Assembly: GCA_016287755.1 (NCBI GenBank)
Contig: JAEEWT010000015.1
Coordinates: 1 to 64,000, forward strand
Source: Prevotella sp.
GTDB taxonomy: Bacteria > Bacteroidota > Bacteroidia > Bacteroidales > Bacteroidaceae
Length of the DNA stretch: 64,000 nt
Reading direction: 5' to 3'
The position numbers and the translations under genes were made by a program. Below, piece after piece: positions 50,032-54,364 of the stretch; the stretch's first letter is position 1; every line of letters begins with the position of its first letter. The notes beneath the pieces were generated by a model that saw nothing but the letters and a program-made list of their open reading frames with translations, did no database searches and was not told the origin of the DNA.

Positions 50032-51357
50032 ATGAAAAAGGAATTGTTTTACGGAATAACCATGATGGCAATGAGCAGTTTGTTGCTGTCGTGTTCCTCT
50101 TCTGAGGAAGTGTTGGATCTTGGTACGACCAAGAAAATGGTGAACATGGTGGCAGACCCCAAGCCGGTGCAGCTGACACAGGCACAGAGGGCGTTCGCCA
50201 ACGACAATAACCTGTTTACACTGAACTTCCTGAAGACGGTGAACGAAACGGATAAAAGCGGTAAGAGCTTTATCTACTCACCGCTCAGCATCACCTATGT
50301 GTTAGGCATGGTGAACGATGCGGCAGTGGGGCAGACCGAACAGGAGCTGGAACAGGTGCTTGGCTTCCACAGAGGAGGCATCCAGGCGGTGAACGACTAC
50401 TGCAAGAACCTCATCGACAACCTGCCGCAGGTGGACAATAAGGTAACGCTGGACATTGCCAACGCCATCTTCCTGAACAAGAGATACACCTTGAAGCAGC
50501 AGTTCGAGAAGGATATGACGACCTACTACGATGCGAAGGCCGAGGCACTCGACTTCTCTTCACCGAGTACATTGGGTCGTATCAATGGCTGGTGTAAAGA
50601 AAAGACGAAGGGCATGATTCCCACCATTTTGGATGCAGTAAACCCCGATATGATGTCTTACTTGCTCAATGCCATCTATTTCAAGGCCAATTGGGCTTCG
50701 GAGTTCGACCCGAAGGACACCAAGGAAGAGCAGTTCCAGAAGGAGAACGGTTCCACCACACTGCCCATGATGCACCAGAACGTGCTGATCAGATACATGG
50801 AGAACGACATCTATTCAGCCGTTGAGATTCCTTATGGCAATGGCATGTGGAGCATGTGCGTCATGCTACCTGAAGAGGGTAAGACCACCAACGACGTTAT
50901 CGACTATCTTGCTCCAACAGGGAGGGACAAGGATGAAACGGTAGTCAACATGCAGTATGATGTCTTTACACCTCTTTATAGTTCCAGACCTTATGAGGTG
51001 GATTTAAAACTGCCCCGCTTCGAGACTTCCTCCGATACGGATGACGTTCAAGACAACCTGATAGGACTCCTGAATAAGATGGGCATTCGCTTAGCTTTTA
51101 ACCCACAACAGTCGGAGATTCCCAACATGTGCGAACAACCCGTCTATATCAACATGATGCGGCAGAAGGCAAAGATCAAGGTGAACGAGGAAGGCTCAGA
51201 GGCAGCCGCAGTAACGATAGCAGGAGTGTTAACTACTTCTGCCCTCCAAGAACCCCGCAAGGCCGTCTTCCACGCCAACCGTCCCTTCGTCTATGTCATC
51301 CGCGAATCCTCCTCCGGTGTCATCCTTTTCGTTGGGAAGTTTACAGGGGAAGTTTAG
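50032..51357 (+). CDS. Serpin-family serine protease inhibitor, predicted lipoprotein
   Basis: LLLSCSSSEE lipobox; FIYSPLSITYVLGMVNDAAVGQTEQEL; LNAIYFKANWASEFDP; hinge NEEGSEAAAVT, HANRPFVYVIRESSSGVILFVGK. Confidence 0.96.
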   Translation: MKKELFYGITMMAMSSLLLSCSSSEEVLDLGTTKKMVNMVADPKPVQLTQAQRAFANDNNLFTLNFLKTVNETDKSGKSFIYSPLSITYVLGMVNDAAVGQTEQELEQVLGFHRGGIQAVNDYCKNLIDNLPQVDNKVTLDIANAIFLNKRYTLKQQFEKDMTTYYDAKAEALDFSSPSTLGRINGWCKEKTKGMIPTILDAVNPDMMSYLLNAIYFKANWASEFDPKDTKEEQFQKENGSTTLPMMHQNVLIRYMENDIYSAVEIPYGNGMWSMCVMLPEEGKTTNDVIDYLAPTGRDKDETVVNMQYDVFTPLYSSRPYEVDLKLPRFETSSDTDDVQDNLIGLLNKMGIRLAFNPQQSEIPNMCEQPVYINMMRQKAKIKVNEEGSEAAAVTIAGVLTTSALQEPRKAVFHANRPFVYVIRESSSGVILFVGKFTGEV

Positions 51358-51954: not shown

Positions 51955-52578
51955 ATGAAAGGAAAAGAGACCTGCAGGACGCTGAAGAATGTACGCTTGG
52001 CCATTGCTCAGGCCAACGGCATCAGCTATGAACCCACGGAATGTACTCACAAAGGGCCATGTGCTGGCACCTGTCCGCGATGTGAGCAGGAAATGCGTTA
52101 TCTTGAGCAACAGCTCTCGCTACGCAAACGCTTGGGCAAAGCAGTTGCCGTGGTGGGGGTCGCCTTGTCGGCACTACATCCCATGCAAGCACAGGGACAA
52201 ACGCCTGCCCATAAGGCCAAAATATTAGCAGACTCAGTACAACTGGACACTATAACCGTCACTTCGATGCTACGTGAAGGTGAACAAGGAGTGGTATGGC
52301 GCGGCCAGGTACTTGACGAGGACAGCCTCCCCATGATAGGAGTCACCATCACAAGAGAAGGACAGCCACTATACTCGGTAACAAACATCAACGGTTGTTT
52401 TGCCATCGAGGCCCCCATTGGGAGCAAGATTATGTTTTCCTATGTAGGGTACGAGAATAAAGAGATTATCATGAAAAGCCAGAACCCCAATCGTGTAATC
52501 TTTGACGAAGTCAGCGATAACCTCATGGGGGAGGTCATTGTTGTACGCACCGATGACGTTTACTACCACAGCAGATAA
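51955..52578 (+). CDS. Cys-rich N-terminal domain, TM/signal-like segment, CarboxypepD_reg-like beta-sandwich domain
   Basis: MKGKETCRTLKNVRLAIAQANGISYEPTECTHKGPCAGTCPRCEQEMRYLEQQL; KAVAVVGVALSALHPMQAQG; GQVLDEDSLPMIGVTITREGQPLYSVTNINGCFAIEAPIGSKIMFSYVGYENKE. Confidence 0.7.
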   Translation: MKGKETCRTLKNVRLAIAQANGISYEPTECTHKGPCAGTCPRCEQEMRYLEQQLSLRKRLGKAVAVVGVALSALHPMQAQGQTPAHKAKILADSVQLDTITVTSMLREGEQGVVWRGQVLDEDSLPMIGVTITREGQPLYSVTNINGCFAIEAPIGSKIMFSYVGYENKEIIMKSQNPNRVIFDEVSDNLMGEVIVVRTDDVYYHSR

Positions 52579-53203
52579 CACAAACCCATCAGGCGTAGCG
52601 CCACTCATCGGACTGAACAGGCATCGGCTGGCCACCGACGGGAAAGGAGTTACCACATTGGTGGCCTTTCACGGTTGCCCACTGCGGTGTGCTTATTGCC
52701 TGAACAGGCGCTGCCAGGAACCCAATGGTGTGTGGCGCGAGCTGACAACAGACGAGTTGCTTAGCGAGGTCATGGTTGACCATCTTTACTTTCTGGCAAC
52801 GGGTGGCGGCATATGCTTCGGCGGCGGTGAGCCCTGCCTGCGCTCTAACTTTATCTGCGAGTTCGCCGACAAGATGCCGTCAGAGTGGAGAATAACAATA
52901 GAAACGAGTCTTAACGTGGACAATAAACTGGTGGAACAGCTGTTTCCGAAGGTCAGCCAGTGGGTAGTGGACGTGAAAGACATGAACCCCGAGATCTATT
53001 GTAAATATACAGGAAGCGACAACCACCTCGTTGTGGAGAACCTTGAATGGCTCAAAAGACAGCATTCAGATAAAGGAAATATTATGCTGCGCCTACCGCA
53101 TATCCCCGGCTACAACACAGCGGAAGACATCGAAAAGAGCCGCCAAAGCCTGCTACAGATGGGCTTCACCGTGTTCGACGACTTTGAATACACTATCTTC
53201 TAA
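52553..53203 (+). CDS. Radical SAM protein, glycyl-radical-enzyme activase-like
   Basis: FHGCPLRCAYC (CxxxCxxC), TGGGICFGGGEPCL, WVVDVKDMNPEIYCKYTG; ATG at 52553 overlaps the upstream CDS by 26 nt. Confidence 0.88.
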   Translation: MTFTTTADNTNPSGVAPLIGLNRHRLATDGKGVTTLVAFHGCPLRCAYCLNRRCQEPNGVWRELTTDELLSEVMVDHLYFLATGGGICFGGGEPCLRSNFICEFADKMPSEWRITIETSLNVDNKLVEQLFPKVSQWVVDVKDMNPEIYCKYTGSDNHLVVENLEWLKRQHSDKGNIMLRLPHIPGYNTAEDIEKSRQSLLQMGFTVFDDFEYTIF

Positions 53204-54104
53204 TAGTGAACCCCACTTTTTGTATACCGCGCTTATACACATTGGCGAGGATGAGGTAGTAGTGCAGCGTTTCGCCCTGTTTCATCGATTGTTTGATGTA
53301 TGCCATCTCGCTCTCGGTAAGTATGTTCTTGAAGAGGAAGCCGGAATGAGTGCTGGGCACAAGGCGTATTTCTTCGGTAATGGGTGAAAGAATGTAAGCG
53401 TATGTTGCCATATAACGGGCACCTGCCTGCCATAGTGGATGGCTCTTGTCGAGAATGTTCTCTAAGTAGATTTGTGCATGCTTGTCAAATTCAGGTGTCG
53501 GCGTGCCATCAGCGTATGTCATCTTACCATCGGCATCCACCACATATTCACCTCCTTTGGTTATGGCATACTTTTCTACCGGGCACTGCTGCTCATATGT
53601 TATGTCGGCTTCACTCTTTACTACTTCCTCTGCTGGCTCTGCCACTTCTTCCACTTTCTTGTCGTCTAGGATGCGCACCAGTTCGTAGGTGCGGTTACTG
53701 GCATCCTGCGGTGGATTGGCCAAAATAGTTCGCTTTACGCGCAGCTCGTATTCATGCCCTCTTTCGTAGGTAAAACCCTTGATGCCGCTGATGGGCAGGT
53801 TCTGCCATTGTCCCGGCTCGTCCTCTGTCATCACTCGCATGCACTCGATGGGATGTTCCCCCATGCTGTCGAAGAGATCGTACATAACACCCGGTTCTGC
53901 GGAAACACTCATGGCAATCACCTTGGTGATGTCCTTGTCGTTGTCATCGTCGTCGCTGCAAGAGCCGAGGGGGAAAGTAGCAAGCAGCATCAAAGTCCCG
54001 ATTAAGCAAGAGGAAAGTGATGCTTGAATAGCTTTCCTGAGCATGAGATGTTTCGGCCAAAGGCCATAGGCGATGGCGCAAATCCTGATTTTCATTGTTT
54101 TCAT
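53193..54104 (-). CDS. DUF4377-like lipoprotein; convergent and overlapping the radical SAM gene by 11 bp
   Basis: FPLGSCSDDDD lipobox; AEPGVMYDLFDSMGEHPIECMRVMTEDEPGQWQNLPISGIKGFTYERGHEYELRVKRTILANPPQDASNRTYELVRIL. Confidence 0.6.
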   Translation of the reverse strand: MKTMKIRICAIAYGLWPKHLMLRKAIQASLSSCLIGTLMLLATFPLGSCSDDDDNDKDITKVIAMSVSAEPGVMYDLFDSMGEHPIECMRVMTEDEPGQWQNLPISGIKGFTYERGHEYELRVKRTILANPPQDASNRTYELVRILDDKKVEEVAEPAEEVVKSEADITYEQQCPVEKYAITKGGEYVVDADGKMTYADGTPTPEFDKHAQIYLENILDKSHPLWQAGARYMATYAYILSPITEEIRLVPSTHSGFLFKNILTESEMAYIKQSMKQGETLHYYLILANVYKRGIQKVGFTIRR

Positions 54105-54274: not shown

Positions 54275-54282
54275 AAGCCTTG

Positions 54283-54364
54283 TACCCAGAGCCGGGGTCG
54301 AACCGGCACGGGTTGCCCCACTGGTGTTTGAGACCAGCGCGTCTACCGATTCCGCCATCTGGGC
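54283..54364 (-). tRNA. tRNA-Leu (anticodon CAA)
   Basis: GCCCAGATGGCGGAATCGGTAGACGCGCTGGTCTCAAACACCAGTGGGGCAACCCGTGCCGGTTCGACCCCGGCTCTGGGT; anticodon arm CTGGT-CTCAAAC-ACCAG; long variable arm. Confidence 0.93.

Follow-up and report, generated by a model that had tools for sequence, protein, structure and literature searches.

What does a radical SAM enzyme that resembles PflA act on when no glycyl-radical enzyme (GRE) is encoded beside it? The question is raised by a 64,000-nucleotide stretch of a Prevotella sp. genome (contig JAEEWT010000015.1, positions 1 to 64,000; here called the window), in which the gene for such an enzyme overlaps a gene for a cysteine-rich protein. A preliminary description of the sequence had offered three roles for the cysteine-rich protein: substrate, Fe-S donor, or membrane scaffold. 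We analyzed the products of both genes and followed their relatives across sets of genomes at the family, order, and phylum levels.

Two overlapping genes in the window

The coordinates of the gene pair and of its parts are collected in Table 1.

Table 1. Features of the gene pair (positions are those of the window)
Feature	Coordinates	Strand	Description and basis
Cys-domain protein gene	51955..52578	+	207 aa: cytosolic Cys domain, hydrophobic segment, CarboxypepD_reg; homologues beside the enzyme gene in 73/80 named loci
Five-cysteine N-terminal domain, residues 1-64	51955..52146	+	Conservation, AF2 model
Hydrophobic signal-like segment, residues 63-79	52141..52191	+	Sequence; comparable segment after the Cys domain in 114/133 relatives
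QGVVWRGQV, residues 111-119	52285..52311	+	Junction to the CarboxypepD_reg domain; sequence
CarboxypepD_reg-like beta-sandwich, about residues 116-197	52300..52542	+	Pfam PF13715 (CarbopepD_reg_2), E 1e-11, above Pfam cut-off
Radical SAM enzyme gene	52553..53203	+	216 aa from ATG 52553; PflA-like predicted fold, one [4Fe-4S] motif
CX3CX2C radical SAM cluster motif (C42, C46, C49)	52676..52699	+	Invariant in 57 homologues

The 26-nt overlap that had been described holds when the radical SAM open reading frame (ORF) starts at ATG 52553; the open frame reaches farther upstream, to TTG 52502. The product of the upstream ORF has cysteines at positions 7, 30, 36, 40, and 43. The extra cysteine reported at position 7 is therefore present, and so is the reported cluster, except that its first gap is longer than described (C-x5-C-x3-C-x2-C, not x4). 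The succession of a hydrophobic segment and a CarboxypepD_reg domain also stands: Pfam and NCBIfam profiles detected no TonB plug or beta-barrel, and CarboxypepD_reg is the sole SusC/RagA-like part of the protein. In a survey of 133 relatives, the hydrophobic segment mostly ends in a lipobox or AxA site and about 60 cytosolic residues precede the export signal. The label "membrane protein" is thus right as to the hydrophobic segment but incomplete: in most members, a cytosolic domain of ∼60 residues appears to precede a signal of the lipoprotein or secretory type, whereas others look cytosolic throughout.

Directly upstream of the pair lies a gene for a serpin lipoprotein (50032-51357); serpin genes are also found upstream of Cys-domain genes at four other loci (L126, L134, L135, and L139). 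On the other side, a DUF4377 gene (53193-54104, minus strand) stands tail to tail with the radical SAM gene, the two 3′ ends sharing 11 nt, and is followed by a tRNA-Leu (54282-54364).

A PflA-like enzyme with a single cluster motif

The enzyme matches the Radical_SAM family of Pfam (PF04055, E 1e-13). Among NCBIfam models it scores best with TIGR02494, a GRE-activating family (E 9e-35), although the score lies below the cut-off of that model (120 versus 174 bits). PflA is the best PDB match both by sequence profile (E 5e-23) and by fold (3c8f/3cb8; TM 0.80, E 4e-14), the latter obtained with a predicted model (pLDDT 92); the enzyme, earlier described as GRE-activase-like, is thus predicted to have a PflA-like fold. 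The only invariant cysteines among 57 homologues are those of the one cluster motif. Two further residues are invariant in this set: D29, which precedes the cluster motif and aligns with Asp16 of PflA, and N51, just after it, which aligns with Asn38. In PflA, Asp16 and Asn38 anchor the target glycine peptide (PMC9326890). No SPASM/twitch, RRE, or ferredoxin domain was found in the 216 residues by Pfam or in the secondary structure of the model. A viperin-type defense enzyme was considered and rejected, as the PADLOC match reached only E 0.001, whereas the resemblance to PflA is much stronger.

No link between the enzyme and a glycyl-radical enzyme

The absence of a GRE from the window, which the preliminary description had pointed out, extends to the whole genome: in this 99.98%-complete assembly, searches with PF02901 and PF01228 found no PFL-type GRE, the NrdD type (PF13597) being outside the search. 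PF01228 was also searched in 100 genomes of the same family. A GRE was present in 7 of 13 enzyme-bearing and 64 of 88 enzyme-free genomes (p 0.2), so that 6 of the 13 lack a match. The presence of a GRE thus does not track that of the enzyme, and we see no link between the two. A dedicated GRE elsewhere in the genome, shown to be activated by this enzyme, had been named as a finding that would speak against a role for the Cys-rich protein; PF02901 and PF01228 revealed none in the genome of the window, and across genomes GRE presence does not follow the enzyme.

It is very improbable, therefore, that we are dealing with an ordinary activase for a GRE encoded elsewhere, with the Cys-rich gene a chance or regulatory neighbor. 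The fold and the top profile matches are indeed those of GRE activases, but this explanation is largely refuted by the lack of any PF02901 or PF01228 protein in a near-complete genome, by the 6 enzyme-bearing genomes without a PF01228 match, and by the behavior of true activases of the same family. The latter, in four genomes (G053, G072, G008, and G080), directly adjoin their GRE, as judged by coordinates. In a phylogenetic tree, the enzyme family forms its own clade (support 100/98), from which the true activases encoded in these genomes are separate, and it has a signature of its own: DGxGVT, in which D29, G30, and G32 are invariant and T34 replaces Arg, versus DGPG[IL]R in the true activases.

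The five-cysteine domain

All five cysteines are conserved, as the preliminary description had proposed to check. Among 77 nonredundant domains, G3, C7, L10, R14, C30, G38, C40, and C43 are 100% conserved and C36 is conserved in 97%; the five cysteines also recur in 55 of 55 hold-out proteins. An AlphaFold2 model of the domain, which comprises about 60 residues, predicts with confidence a helical hairpin (pLDDT 89, pTM 0.73) made of helices 2-20 and 41-59 joined by a Cys loop, with the cysteines in the loop and at the start of the second helix. The five cysteines probably bind a metal. No Pfam or NCBIfam model matches the domain in any of 90 proteins, and the PDB offers neither a sequence match (best E 0.5) nor a fold match (best E 3.6). 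The five-cysteine tag is therefore new, being absent from Pfam and NCBIfam. LysW and anti-TRAP gave only weak, zinc ribbon-like matches to residues 1-64 (E 0.5-1) and were not retained as relatives. A twin-arginine export signal (RRxLGKA) was likewise dropped, as its RR is not conserved.

The domain also occurs without cargo. It is fused to the enzyme as its C terminus in three genomes (L061, L062, and L269), and it makes up nearly the whole of minimal proteins of 85 to 88 aa at two loci, L058 and L074. At these two loci (L058:5444-12234 and L074:5252-11805), the minimal protein and the enzyme are encoded among genes for a DUF1848 protein and a large protein, which at L058 has LRR/Sel1 repeats, together with a gene for PDC-S51 (DUF3800) or a NucC-like DUF6602 nuclease; these surroundings look like a defense island.

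The enzyme and the domain occur together

Among 101 genomes of the family of the window, all 13 enzyme-bearing genomes carry the Cys domain, immediately adjoining the enzyme (Fisher p 1e-14). The 13 are true orthologues; two further matches are PflA-type activases next to a GRE and were excluded. In a sample of 295 genomes of the order, 9 of 9 enzyme-bearing genomes also have the domain (p 2e-16), a tenth domain match being a 25-residue remnant. Co-occurrence had been suggested as a check and its failure as a refutation; what we observed is the opposite of such a failure.

The same partner emerges from a wider collection. Relatives of the enzyme, distant ones counted, are encoded in at least 569 stretches of a species-level genome collection; the best 80 of them, our named loci, include cultured Bacteroides, Prevotella, and Segatella species. 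The gene is also carried by Bacteroides xylanisolvens XB1A (NC_021017.1, about 801115-801732). Among the 7 named loci with no Cys-domain gene in the flank, 4 are cut by a contig end, 2 belong to genomes that encode the domain at another site, and for 1 none was found. When neighboring genes were clustered, the Cys-domain family was the sole recurrent neighbor, at 89 of 99 loci, with the next family reaching 8. Where the partner is a separate gene, it lies upstream on the same strand in 61 cases, downstream in 28, and on the opposite strand in 1. Read from their longest frames, the two genes overlap or touch in 47 of 90 pairs. We conclude that the Cys domain is the real partner of the enzyme.

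Some genomes and loci depart from the pairing. Two family genomes have a domain only: G008, which retains a 53-aa enzyme remnant, and G080, where the domain belongs to a HIRAN protein and has been stripped of most cysteines. One genome (G394) has the enzyme, and no Cys domain was found in it; another (G992) lacks the enzyme and encodes an intact Cys domain fused to ADP-ribosylglycohydrolase. Such an intact fusion lies at L266:2995-4059, in a genome in which only PflA-like, nonorthologous enzymes were found. At L116:1566-6627 and L147:2-4876, the radical SAM gene follows a SusC/SusD-like pair rather than a Cys-domain gene.

About 13% of the sampled genomes of the family have the Cys domain. The enzyme of the window is ∼99% identical to that of Prevotella sp. 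RGIG9694, a metagenome-assembled genome from yak omasum. We did not find the system outside Bacteroidales, as a phylum-wide sample of 398 genomes matched only two members of this order. A plasmid of Segatella copri HDE06 (L282, NZ_CP137558.1) carries two Cys-domain genes annotated "energy transducer TonB" and a radical SAM gene; because these genes adjoin MobC, relaxase, and integrase genes, the system can ride on mobile DNA. Three tandem Cys-domain genes are present on a 6.8-kb fecal contig (L283, MT837469.1) filed as "Bacteriophage sp.," an unverified and unannotated entry that is probably bacterial DNA.

One domain, many cargos

As an N-terminal module, the Cys domain is mobile and has been joined to many cargos that are unrelated to one another. 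Among 90 proteins that bear it, here called clients, 55 end in TonB_C and 13 carry CarboxypepD_reg. Other cargos are a serpin (L073) and HIRAN (L075 and L262), these without an export signal, and ADP-ribosylglycohydrolase (L266); some proteins have no cargo. Tandem clients per enzyme are common, with up to 4 or 5 in the genus of the window, and one hold-out locus has six tandem Cys-domain genes, one of them a fragment. In NCBI annotation, the members of one pair appear as "energy transducer TonB" and "radical SAM protein," and two clients carry the TonB label.

A glycine motif recurs in the linkers

The linkers between domain and cargo share a repeated motif, [LFVI]xG[DE][VI], behind which an acidic, Pro-rich stretch is often found. 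The motif was observed 72 times, whereas shuffling predicts 3.3 occurrences and none of 200 shuffles gave more than 8, and it is present in 49 of 61 nonredundant Cys-domain lipoproteins versus none of 49 control lipoproteins from the same loci (p 4e-20). This pattern was picked after inspection of the data; a hold-out was fixed beforehand, with at least 50% predicted. The motif occurred in 8 of 17 new lipoprotein clients (47%, just short of the preset 50%) versus 0 of 49 controls (p 4e-6). HIRAN clients found later (L261-L265 and L268) bear it as well. A looser glycine pattern was discarded as evidence, since it matches 18 of the 49 control lipoproteins.

An independent difference is seen ahead of the TonB_C domain. 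In 35 of 54 Cys-domain TonB_C proteins, a Gly lies 8 to 10 residues before FPGG, versus 0 of 21 ordinary TonB_C proteins from related genomes (p 1e-7), which have F[DTQ]VVE or similar there and never Gly. In two HIRAN-type proteins from enzyme-free genomes (L053 and L270), the Cys loop has decayed and the linker is devoid of LxG[DE]V.

The CarboxypepD-type client of the window itself lacks the strict motif, LxG[DE]V; judging from its sequence and position, QGVVWRGQV is possibly a weak equivalent. The enzyme fusions and the 85- to 88-aa proteins have no cargo motif, so that the target there would be the Cys domain itself or another protein.

A proposed modification system

We think that the two genes are probably one case of a protein-modification system of Bacteroidales. 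On balance, we judge it probable that the Cys domain recruits the enzyme and that the cargo is then modified by it, with the glycine of the motif as the most likely site. We infer the following course of events. The enzyme would be a stand-alone radical SAM protein with a PflA fold that has departed from GRE activation, and the small helical hairpin on each client would be its recruitment module. Docking would take place while the Cys domain is in the cytosol, and any metal held by the domain might be an Fe-S cluster of the auxiliary kind, which is missing from the single-cluster enzyme. Next, the enzyme would take the alpha-hydrogen from the glycine of [LFVI]xG[DE][VI], as PflA does on its glycine loop, and the modified cargo, mostly a TonB_C or CarboxypepD_reg lipoprotein and sometimes a cytosolic serpin or HIRAN protein, would be exported or used. 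The co-occurrence and adjacency of the two genes, the three natural fusions, the sharing of one domain by unrelated C termini, the tandem clients, the enrichment of the motif and its absence from the decayed HIRAN relatives, and the invariance of D29 and N51 argue for this reading; the window client without a strict motif, the fusions and minimal proteins without a cargo motif, genome G394, in which no domain was found, and the enzyme-less genome G992 argue against it. Among the roles first offered for the Cys-rich protein, that of substrate is favored over those of Fe-S donor and scaffold, which keep some probability.

These last roles could be combined in an accessory protein that is not a substrate: it would supply electrons or an auxiliary cluster in trans, in the manner of a SPASM domain or a ferredoxin, and it would hold the enzyme at the membrane, with the periplasmic domain exerting control. 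We consider this unlikely, though far from negligible. The single cluster motif of the enzyme would suit such a helper, as would the existence of the domain alone, whether fused to the enzyme or as minimal proteins, and the five cysteines are more strictly conserved than any feature of the cargo. However, an accessory role leaves unexplained why one enzyme has several paralogous clients, why cargos are as diverse as serpin, HIRAN, and ADP-ribosylglycohydrolase, and why linkers share a glycine motif, and no other substrate gene recurs nearby. A classical RiPP pathway, in which a small secreted peptide is released from a Cys-domain precursor, would account for a leader-like conserved N terminus, a short repeated motif, and several precursors per enzyme. 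We regard it as improbable, given that the clients are proteins of 110 to 470 aa that contain folded domains and bring signal sequences of their own, that no transporter or leader peptidase recurs nearby, and that the enzyme has no SPASM domain. A thioether (sactipeptide-like) cross-link is disfavored by the linkers, most of which have no Cys beyond the lipobox.

Within the recruitment model, we tentatively raise the possibility of a transferable "radical tag": an enzyme that descends from PflA and is brought in by a Cys-cluster domain might place a glycine-centered backbone modification in the LxG[DE]V of unrelated, mostly exported proteins. The product, under this same joint and still doubtful reading, might be a stable glycyl radical or a derivative of one, that is, glycyl-type radical chemistry outside GREs. 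If the recruitment model is right, bacteria that dominate the gut and the rumen use glycine-directed radical chemistry on their surface or periplasmic proteins, and the recruitment domain would be portable, so that it could be moved to other proteins. Evidence of a glycine radical on exported proteins, or of a backbone change derived from a radical, would make the system categorically new.

Relation to known systems

Neither the Cys domain nor its pairing with the enzyme is named or described in the databases and papers that we searched. TIGR04133/TIGR04134, which we take to be the NCBIfam "rSAM/lipoprotein system" of Bacteroidetes, is similar in that it combines a radical SAM gene with one for a lipoprotein. 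TIGR04133 is not among the best 25 of 31 families matched by the enzyme (E ≤ 1), and TIGR04134 is absent from the 11 NCBIfam families matched by the 90 clients (E 1e-3). The clients whose C terminus is TonB_C (55 of 90) resemble the "energy transducer TonB" proteins of Bacteroidetes; unlike ordinary TonB proteins, they add the N-terminal Cys domain and often the extra Gly before TonB_C (35/54 versus 0/21).

Radical SAM RiPP maturases and their precursor peptides have been described for Bacteroidales (PMC10352776). Like such maturases (SuiB, CteB), the enzyme is encoded beside several leader-bearing, motif-repeating proteins, here presumed to be its substrates. Unlike them, it has no SPASM or RRE, the leader is a five-cysteine helical hairpin, the cargos are full folded domains, and the locus includes no exporter or peptidase.

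The closest relatives are the PflA/TIGR02494 activases. The likeness covers the predicted fold (TM 0.80 to 3c8f/3cb8), the CX3CX2C, DG.G, GGEP, and DxK-type motifs, the equivalents of Asp16 and Asn38, and the lack of SPASM. The family of the window differs from these activases in having no GRE partner, in its DGxGVT signature, in forming a clade of its own, and in its obligate Cys-domain partner. For annotation, this means that "PflA-like" is not the same as "GRE activase."
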